A stretch of 64,000 nucleotides of DNA, taken from the NCBI GenBank assembly GCA_003212885.1, contig QCOP01000001.1, forward strand, positions 1-64,000, written 5' to 3'. Origin of the DNA: Prochlorococcus sp. AG-432-D11. Its GTDB lineage: Bacteria; Cyanobacteriota; Cyanobacteriia; PCC-6307; Cyanobiaceae. Numbering within the stretch: position 1 is the stretch's first letter; the number at the start of each line of letters is the position of its first letter. Positions 45,651-48,703 of this stretch are shown here, in pieces. Below the pieces are notes generated by a model that was not told the DNA's origin, ran no database searches, and saw only the letters and a list, made by a program, of their open reading frames with translations. The position numbers were made by a program, and so were the translations under genes.

Positions 45651-46250
45651 TCATTCTCTCATTTTAGTCAAAGACAAAAAATTCTTAAGTAAGTCGTGAC
45701 CAAATTCTGTAAGCACACTTTCAGGGTGAAACTGCACTCCTTGTAAGTGTAAATATTTTTTATGCATTATTCCCATAATAGTTCCATCTTCTAACCAAGC
45801 TGTTACATCAAAACAATCGGGTAAACTAACCTTTTCTGCCACAAGACTATGATATCTAGTCCCAATAAATGGATTAGCCAAACCATAGAATACACCCTTA
45901 TTATTATGGAAAATTTTTGAAGTTTTACCATGGACAAGTTCACTTGCCCCAGTAATCTTCCCACCAAAAACTTGTGCAATAGTTTGATGCCCTAAACAAA
46001 CACCAAGTATAGGGATATCGCTAGAAAGCTTCTGTACAACTTCTAGACAAATTCCTGATTGATCTGGATCACCTGGTCCTGGCGACAGAATTATTGCATT
46101 TGGACTTAATTCAATAATCTGAAGTATAGATAATTGATCATTCCTTTTTACTACAATTTCTTCAGCAACAGCAAAATCTGTAGCCAATTCACCAAGATAT
46201 TGAACAAGATTAAAAGTAAAACTATCGTAGTTATCTATTACAAGGATCAT
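45651..46250 (-). CDS. trpG: Anthranilate/aminodeoxychorismate synthase glutaminase component
   Basis: VIDNYDSFTFNLVQYLGEL; SPGPGDP; GVCLGHQ; GVQFHPES. Confidence 0.95.
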   Translation of the reverse strand: MILVIDNYDSFTFNLVQYLGELATDFAVAEEIVVKRNDQLSILQIIELSPNAIILSPGPGDPDQSGICLEVVQKLSSDIPILGVCLGHQTIAQVFGGKITGASELVHGKTSKIFHNNKGVFYGLANPFIGTRYHSLVAEKVSLPDCFDVTAWLEDGTIMGIMHKKYLHLQGVQFHPESVLTEFGHDLLKNFLSLTKMRE

Positions 46251-46257
46251 AAACAGA

Positions 46258-46722
46258 CTAAATAATTGCCAAGCGAACTAATAAAGGGGGCAACAATAAA
46301 AGTGCTCCTACTATTACAGATGTAAGTGAAGCTACTAAAACGGCTGCAGCTGCGCAATCTTTAGCTACTCGAGCCAAAGGATGAAACCGTCTACCTATCG
46401 CCAAATCTACAACAGCTTCAACAGATGTATTTATTAACTCTAAAACTAAAACAGCAGCAATAATCAAAACAAGTATGGCAAAATTATACAAAGGAAGTTC
46501 TAACCACAACCCAAGAAGACTTGCTACCGAACCTAAAGATAGATGAATACGAAAATTGCGTTGACTAGAAAAAGCGTACCCAAGTCCTTGAGCTGCATAA
46601 CGAAAACTAGAAGGCAAGTCTTTGGCTATCTTCCATGAACCTCTTCTAGAAGGCCTATCAAGATGATTTGAAAGTTTAGTAACCTTTGAGGCGTCTAAAG
46701 AATTTACTTTCTCAGCACTCAT
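46258..46722 (-). CDS. dgkA: Diacylglycerol kinase
   Basis: NFRIHLSLG; ELINTSVEAVVDL; AKDCAAAAVL. Confidence 0.93.
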   Translation of the reverse strand: MSAEKVNSLDASKVTKLSNHLDRPSRRGSWKIAKDLPSSFRYAAQGLGYAFSSQRNFRIHLSLGSVASLLGLWLELPLYNFAILVLIIAAVLVLELINTSVEAVVDLAIGRRFHPLARVAKDCAAAAVLVASLTSVIVGALLLLPPLLVRLAII

Positions 46723-47303
46723 TACTGATTTACCTCAAAAGCACTAAGATTTGAGTAATTGTTACTAGCATTTATAAGTTTGCCCTGAAAAGTCAACATC
46801 TGATCAAGCATTTGAGAGTTCGGGTGATCCCATCCAAGTAAATGGAGAAGACCATGGGTAATAAGCCAGCATAACTCATTTTCCAAGGTGTGTTCTAAAG
46901 AAATAGCTTGTTTATGAGCAGTGGGCATGGAAACAACTATATCTCCCAGCTCTAGAGTCTCCTGAGGAAATGACAACATATGTATATTCTCATCAATAAC
47001 AGGAAAAGACAAAACATCTGTAGGCTCAGATTTGCCTAACCATTGTTGATTCAAATCAGAAATTGTTAAGTCGTCAGTAAACTGAAGACCTAAACTAAAC
47101 TTGTTCGATGCTATAAAAACTCGAGGGAGCTTTTCATGCACTAACTTTTTAGCCGAATAAATCCAAACCCTTAAACGGTCTAGCCAATATTGAGAATGAT
47201 TTAAGTAACTATTTGCGGGATTTTTAATAAAGTAATCTGAAGAAATTGGAGTAAAAGCAAGATCCAGTTCAATTTTTTCTAATTGAATTTCCATCACATT
47301 CAA
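46722..47303 (-). CDS. ybeY: Endoribonuclease YbeY
   Basis: WLITHGLLHLLGWDH. Confidence 0.95.
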   Translation of the reverse strand: MNVMEIQLEKIELDLAFTPISSDYFIKNPANSYLNHSQYWLDRLRVWIYSAKKLVHEKLPRVFIASNKFSLGLQFTDDLTISDLNQQWLGKSEPTDVLSFPVIDENIHMLSFPQETLELGDIVVSMPTAHKQAISLEHTLENELCWLITHGLLHLLGWDHPNSQMLDQMLTFQGKLINASNNYSNLSAFEVNQ

Positions 47304-47491
47304 TTAGGTATATTTGGACGTGAAATTGATGCAATTAACACAATAAAAATAATAAAACCAAAAGCTGTTAAACCTAAATGCACTAGACTCTGGCCACCTT
47401 TACGGACCATATTCTTCATTGCAAGTTTTACAAAACTTGGAGATGAAGTATTTTTCTTTATAGAAACATTTGAAGATAAATCTTTTTTCAT
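47300..47491 (-). CDS. Small membrane protein (DUF3285-like)
   Basis: MKKDLSS..KLAMKNMVRKGGQSLVHLGLTAFGFIIFIVLIA; start chosen to avoid overlap with prfB. Confidence 0.65.
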   Translation of the reverse strand: MKKDLSSNVSIKKNTSSPSFVKLAMKNMVRKGGQSLVHLGLTAFGFIIFIVLIASISRPNIPN

Positions 47492-47498
47492 AATGTAA

Positions 47499-48624
47499 TT
47501 AACGCTCTTGCAATTTTGCAGTGGCCATCTTTTGTCTGAGTAGAGACTCAATAAACAAATCTAATCCCCCATTCATTACTCCTTCAACATCTGTAGTTTC
47601 ATCGTCAGTTCGAAGGTCTTTGACCATTTGATATGGATGAAAGACATAATTTCTTATCTGATTACCCCATGCTGCTTCGACGATATCACCCCTAATATCA
47701 GCAATCTCTGCAGCCCTTTGCTCCTGCGCAATAACCAATAATTTTGCTTTTAAGAGTGCCAAAGCCTTCTCCTTATTCTGGAGTTGAGAACGTTCTTGAG
47801 TACATCTAACAGCCATACCTGTCGGAATATGCAAAATACGTACAGCTGTCTCAACCTTATTTACATTTTGGCCCCCAGCACCACCAGACCTACTAGTAGT
47901 AACTTCTAAATCCTTTTCTGGTAAATCCATTTTCACCTCACTCTCTAACTTAGGCATGACTTCTACTCCTGCAAAACTAGTTTGCCTCTTGCCATTGGCA
48001 TTAAAAGGGGAAATACGAACTAAACGATGCGTTCCTTTTTCATTCTTCAAATAACCATAAGCATAACGACCTTCAATTTCAATCGATGCACTTTTAATAC
48101 CCGCTTCTTCTCCTTCAGACATTTCACTTACCAACACCTTCATTCCATGACCCTCTGCCCATCTTGAATACATTCTTAAAAGCATCTGAGCCCAATCTTG
48201 TGCATCTGTCCCTCCAGCACCAGCATTTATAGATAAAACTGCACCTTCTTTGTCATAAGTACCACTTAACAATCGTTCCAATTCCCAAGCATCTAAATCT
48301 TGTTTCAAAGTCTTCAAACCAGACTGAGCCTCAAATAGCATTTCTTCATCAGGCTCTAATGCATATAGCTCTAAAATCGCTTCAGCGTCTTGAACTAAAG
48401 TCGTCCATTTTTCTAACTTTTTCAACTGATCTTTAATCTCATCAAGATGTTGCATTTGCATCTGTGCATCCTTAGGATTATTCCAAAGATCAGGTTGTGC
48501 AACAATCTGCTCTAGATTCAGCTGATCAGCCTTTAATTTAGCCTCGTCAAAGACAGTCCTGGGCATTGCCCAGGCGAATAGTCAATGATGAGAGTTCTCT
48601 TTTGAATTCTGTGAGATCTTGCAA
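47499..48624 (-). CDS. prfB: Peptide chain release factor 2, programmed +1 frameshift
   Basis: RF2 body in listed ORF; upstream frame encodes [25 protein letters not shown] then UGA in CTTTGAC; TTG start at 48624. Confidence 0.9.
48558..48574 (-). promoter_or_regulatory. Perfect hairpin CCTGGGC-AAT-GCCCAGG immediately upstream of the prfB frameshift site
   Basis: Direct reading; 7-bp stem, 3-nt loop, 3' arm contains the SD-like AGG. Confidence 0.6.
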
Positions 48625-48703
48625 TTTAAATCATCCAATTCTCTACTTTCAAAATATTAGCGATCAACTTCTAATAAAATAAATTCATTAAGAAAAATAC
48701 CTA

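Follow-up and report, generated by a model that had tools for sequence, protein, structure and literature searches.

A conserved hairpin beside the prfB frameshift site of Cyanobacteriia as a candidate stand-in for the internal Shine–Dalgarno duplex

In bacteria, the shift within prfB, the gene for release factor 2 (RF2), is the textbook case of +1 frameshifting, with a duplex between an internal Shine–Dalgarno (SD) element and the anti-SD regarded as what stimulates it. A survey of 12,753 bacterial species found programmed +1 frameshifting of prfB in 64 % of them, with TGA in 98.6 % of the cases (PMC12421855). The prfB of Escherichia coli, as set out there, has UGA as codon 26, CUU at the slip, C after the UGA, an SD-like element 3 nt upstream and the RF2 body in the +1 frame, all of which recur at the locus considered here; however, E. 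coli carries AGGGGG (about -8.4 kcal/mol), whereas this locus has AGGA (-3.7 kcal/mol) inside a conserved hairpin. Another relevant system is the synthetic hairpin H1 of Huang et al. 2018 (PMC6321510), in which, as here, CUUUGA has a stable stem close to the 5' side of its E-site codon. In E. coli 70S ribosomes, such a synthetic upstream hairpin provided ~60 % of the SD's +1 stimulation, did so only without RF2, and was proposed to mimic the SD duplex (PMC6321510). The natural stem has a comparable geometry, but H1 was engineered with 12 bp, whereas the natural stem has 7 bp and is conserved across a bacterial class; cyanobacteria are unmentioned in that paper. Within the phylum itself, the prfB genes of non-photosynthetic Cyanobacteriota (families f39-f47) share CTTTGAC, the spacer codon and RF2 in the +1 frame with the present locus, yet have AAGGAG, AGGAGG or similar before the shift site and no overlapping hairpin.

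The locus lies in a window of 64,000 nt, i.e. the whole stretch of DNA analysed, from Prochlorococcus sp. AG-432-D11 (GCA_003212885.1, contig QCOP01000001.1). The genome assembly is ~54 % complete, and a single gene of the RF1/RF2 family was found in it; prfA is therefore missing from the assembly.

The shift site and the reading frames of prfB

An earlier note on this DNA had traced prfB from a TTG through a 25-residue RF2 N-terminus to an in-frame UGA, placed the shift at exactly CTTTGAC, and continued RF2 in the +1 frame, and all of its coordinates are correct (Table 1). The TTG occupies 48624-48622, with an in-frame TGA at 48633-48631 closing the zero frame above it; the second in-frame TGA, at 48549-48547, is codon 26 and stands between CTT (48552-48550) and C (48546). 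Reading in the +1 frame from the GAC at 48548 yields 349 aa before the stop at 47499 is reached. Across both frames the protein has 374 aa; it contains both the SPF and the GGQ motifs, scores 463 bits against TIGR00020 (cut-off 370), and aligns with solved RF2 structures without a gap across the junction.

Table 1. Positions of the prfB features in the window, with the stems found at prfB in other phyla
Feature	Position	Strand	Remarks
Shift site CTT TGA C	48546..48552	minus	CTTTGAC in all of the best 80 relatives
Hairpin CCUGGGC-AAU-GCCCAGG	48558..48574	minus	arms 48574-48568 and 48564-48558; -12.1 kcal/mol
SD-like CAGGAC	48556..48561	minus	AGGA could pair with the 3' end of 16S rRNA; duplex predicted at -3.7 kcal/mol
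prfB zero-frame ORF	48547..48624	minus	TTG start, 25 codons, closed by in-frame TGA
prfB +1 frame, RF2 main body	47499..48548	minus	349 codons and stop; SPF and GGQ
ATG of the mechanical ORF (MPRTVF)	48564..48566	minus	artefactual start within the hairpin loop; not kept class-wide
Stems ending at -11			E. coli, Klebsiella, Tistrella, Sinorhizobium, Shinella, Parabacteroides, Bacteroides, Mitsuaria

Among the best 80 relatives (GTDB genomes), CTTTGAC is in register in every one and is preceded, in the other frame, by the same kind of N-terminal peptide (here RLGNAQDCL), while, of 400 genomes from the family, 351 hold the exact motif CAGGANTGYCTTTGAC; among the 251 with a completeness of 90 % or more, 245 hold it. 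Because the motif recurs in the relatives and the family, and the other-frame peptide in the relatives, the frameshift arrangement of the gene is real and neither an assembly nor a sequencing error. Close homologues with the N-terminus in one frame, which the earlier note had named as evidence against its claim, are not among the best 80 relatives, all of which keep the shift; programmed +1 frameshifting of prfB is supported by comparison with the relatives, the family motif, and the RF2 profile and structures. Class-wide, 194 cyanobacterial prfB sites were located, 160 of them distinct, and CTTTGA is in register in all 194. Loss of the shift was seen nowhere in Cyanobacteriia, the loci apparently without it being RF1 paralogues. 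The frameshift itself is the textbook autoregulatory case of prfB, and hence already known; the unusual part is the conserved hairpin that contains the SD-like element. In one genome (G558), a second, diverged RF2-like gene (L241; 46 % identity) carries a CTTTGAC and a GAAGGC of its own but lacks the hairpin.

As the predicted start of prfB, TTG 48624 is supported by its homologues, since, of 92 picocyanobacterial sites, 65 have TTG and 26 have GTG at the corresponding codon (91 together) and none has ATG, compared with ATG at 91 of 102 sites in other Cyanobacteriia. A TTG or GTG start of prfB is a clade-wide weak start in picocyanobacteria. The downstream ATG at 48566, with which a mechanically called ORF opens, had been judged artefactual, and the comparison bears this out: it is absent from many relatives (present at 71 of 92 picocyanobacterial sites vs 15 of 102 others), and the N-terminal helix that it would omit aligns with solved RF2. 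This ATG occupies the hairpin loop together with the first base of the 3' arm and is, judging by the codons found there, a by-product of an Asn, His or Asp codon followed by Ala. Two further observations concern the surroundings of the gene: a mini-frame, ATG ATT TAA, lies at window positions 48626-48634, one base 5' of the TTG start; and on the same strand downstream (45651-47498), translations indicate ORFs for a small membrane-like protein, a YbeY-like protein, a DgkA-like protein and a PabA/TrpG-like glutamine amidotransferase, possibly one operon.

The hairpin and the Shine–Dalgarno-like element

Directly 5' of the shift site lies a hairpin of 7 bp, the 3' arm of which contains the AGG of the SD-like element. 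The earlier note had described CAGGAC as an SD-like element three nt upstream of the site; its position holds, with TGT as the spacer before CTT, but, as part of the conserved stem's 3' arm, it is not an ordinary SD. The 3' end of the hairpin is 5 nt upstream of CTT (stem end at -6) and two nt from the E-site codon, a distance that is invariant, with no indel among the distinct sites. Predicted stabilities range from -7.7 to -12.1 kcal/mol, high-light Prochlorococcus reaching only about -7.7. Folding of the 141 nt that surround the site gives a structure only slightly more stable than those of shuffled sequences (z -1.43), and RNAalifold, applied to an alignment of cyanobacterial sites, recovered five of the seven pairs, since variation is greatest in the pairs that close the loop. 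Between 48300 and 48800, Rfam gave no credible match above gathering score.

Pairing is retained in full at 142 of the 160 distinct sites, and 15 more keep six of the seven pairs. Pair 5 is G-C at 98 distinct sites, G-U at 38, A-U at 22 and never A-C, and pair 7 is C-G at 69, U-A at 50, U-G at 27 and C-A at 3. For 79 diverse sequences, 96.2 % of cells are paired (92.0 +/- 0.5 % in shuffles) and the covariation score is 0.249 (0.164 +/- 0.011 in shuffles); none of 500 shuffles matched the observed pairing or covariation, and doubly changed cells likewise exceeded all 500. Sliding the arms out of register abolishes the pairing. An RF2 tree implies at least 12 changes of the 5' base in pair 5, and tree-based independent-pair tests, too few for significance alone, point in the expected direction, none contradicting the pairing when counted from the 5' base. 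The hairpin is present in every sampled family of the photosynthetic Cyanobacteriia and in 81 of 82 genus labels, its loop varying freely.

The coding sequence bears the same imprint. A synonymous null, which holds the protein fixed and samples codons according to the usage of the gene concerned, leads one to expect full pairing at 5.6 of 82 sites (6.8 with the Gln codon fixed), vs 76 of 82 observed. Out of 105 conserved four- and sixfold-degenerate columns, the lowest entropies belong to CTT at -1 (0), CTG at -8 (0.10) and CGC at -9 (0.23), with the remaining Leu and Arg columns at 1.6 to 2.5 bits; this comparison of codon columns is made within the same genes and hence on the same tree. Codon -8 is CTG in 81/81 and codon -9 is CGC in 79/81, while codon -7 uses only the Gly codons GGC and GGT and codon -5 only codons ending in a pyrimidine. 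Such low codon variation upstream of the shift site is due to the stem, and covariation and synonymous constraint show the hairpin to be conserved as a structure, beyond sequence alone. Rare-codon pausing at CGC CTG is ruled out as a cause, the same codons being kept in GC-rich Cyanobium and Synechococcus.

With regard to the SD-like element, the 16S rRNA of the window's own genome has GGATCACCTCCTAAC as its 3' end, so that SD pairing is possible. The strong form of the element, approaching AGGGGG and typical rather than universal, is absent here. The median predicted SD duplex is -3.7 kcal/mol in Cyanobacteriia vs -5.9 kcal/mol in 33 non-photosynthetic Cyanobacteriota (range -5.9 to -9.4), and the median 27-nt fold is -11.7 vs -1.4 kcal/mol in the same two groups. 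Given this weak SD relative to the outgroups, prfB here is a variant of the frameshift cassette, and a hairpin is shown, in terms of predicted energies, to be exchanged for SD strength between the two groups. AGGA is retained in nearly all Cyanobacteriia. Individual exceptions include a Prochlorococcus genome (G389, L086) that has lost the hairpin and has AGAGGA instead (-5.8 kcal/mol), with no second hairpin-free, better-SD case among the 266 genomes of the genus; a locus (L170) at which the SD is broken (AGCA) and six pairs are retained; and a picocyanobacterium (G064, L084) that has neither hairpin nor AGGA and still keeps CTTTGAC.

Beyond the phylum, 17 prfB records (Pseudomonadota, Bacteroidota, Bacillota) showed no overlapping hairpin. 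Eight of the 17, however, have a best stem that stops exactly at -11, right at the 5' side of a strong SD, and changes between relatives (Sinorhizobium, Shinella, Tistrella) preserve its pairing. Stems of this kind in Pseudomonadota and Bacteroidota resemble the cyanobacterial hairpin in standing directly upstream of the shift cassette, but differ in ending at -11 and leaving the full SD free; with few records sampled, they are a lead.

Proposed mechanism and its rivals

When RF2 is scarce, the ribosome would stall once CUU occupies the P site and UGA the A site, and the peptidyl-tRNA would slip to UUU, allowing RF2 to be completed. In Cyanobacteriia, the stimulator of this step appears to have been rebuilt: the strong internal SD, seen as AAGGAG or AGGAGG in the non-photosynthetic relatives, would have been reduced to AGGA, and a hairpin now ends 5 nt upstream of CUU, at the place expected for an SD–anti-SD duplex. 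On leaving the stalled ribosome, the hairpin would most likely refold and serve in cis as a substitute for that duplex, favouring a slip of one nucleotide forward. We consider it probable, though by no means assured, that prfB undergoes autoregulatory +1 frameshifting in which a refolding hairpin stands in for the SD duplex; formation of the hairpin on the ribosome and stimulation of the shift are what we infer from the conserved pairing and its position. The natural stem is stable and adjoins the E-site codon on its 5' side, as the refolding account calls for (PMC6321510). However, the synthetic hairpin known to work has 12 bp against 7 here, and the retention of CTTTGAC in the picocyanobacterium lacking both hairpin and AGGA is a further counterpoint. 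The retained AGGA may mean that an SD is still acting and competing with the hairpin.

The main rival to the hairpin as stimulator is the converse, that it is an attenuator which hides AGGA and so lowers frameshifting or sets an RF2 threshold, the opened SD being the real stimulator. AGG falls within the 3' arm, and the AGGA duplex, at -3.7 kcal/mol, is weaker than the hairpin, at -7.7 to -12.1 kcal/mol, so that the two structures are mutually exclusive; the retention of AGGA in most species also speaks for such a role. However, point mutations would suffice to weaken an SD, leaving a class-wide 7-bp hairpin unneeded; six pairs persist where the SD is broken (L170); and loss of an attenuator should not require the stronger SD that accompanies hairpin loss in G389. 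All told, attenuation seems unlikely, though deserving of attention. Conservation by itself leaves function unspecified, and the hairpin might be a conserved part of the prfB mRNA that serves some other purpose, such as protein or small-RNA binding, processing or pausing, and adjoins the shift site only incidentally; the fixed distance to CTT, the overlap with the SD position and the absence of the hairpin where the SD is strong make this quite improbable, and it is not a terminator, as no T run follows it.

The remaining alternatives concern whether there is an RNA structure, or a frameshift, at all. A palindrome in the DNA at which a protein binds would likewise yield matching arms through its dyad, but G.U is common (65 cells, pairs 5 and 7) and A.C rare (3), which is the signature of RNA, and the loop is free to vary, so that a DNA site is very improbable. 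That the hairpin is a by-product, with only the protein sequence and the SD conserved, draws on the fairly conserved R-L-G-x-A/T-Q-D peptide, but is extremely hard to reconcile with 76 of 82 sites being fully paired when the synonymous null gives 5.6-6.8, or with CTG and CGC being fixed alike where they are rare (CTG is 4 % of Leu codons here) and in GC-rich genomes. Finally, the ATG 48566 frame is open and scores 459 bits against TIGR00020, as it would if RF2 began there or if the shift were a sequencing error; against this stand the identical shift in hundreds of genomes, the N-terminal helix that aligns with solved RF2 and the many relatives without the ATG, and the prospect of there being no frameshift is practically negligible.

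Implications for RF2 and the frameshift cassette

The passages searched in a frameshift review, the 12,753-genome survey (PMC12421855), a 2026 paper on prfB evolution and a paper on frameshift prediction contain no mention of a hairpin at the prfB shift site. For Cyanobacteriia, the broader proposal is that a natural hairpin replaced the internal SD as +1 stimulator, and that in other phyla, too, the prfB cassette perhaps includes hairpins abutting the SD that have so far escaped notice, a proposal for and against which we see the balance as even. If true, the cyanobacterial hairpin would be a natural case of an effect that is otherwise engineered in the literature surveyed. The combination of a class-wide hairpin and a weakened SD offers an evolutionary swap with which to test how upstream duplexes push the ribosome one base forward, and it shows that RNA structure shapes RF2 at its synonymous positions and perhaps in its amino acids too.
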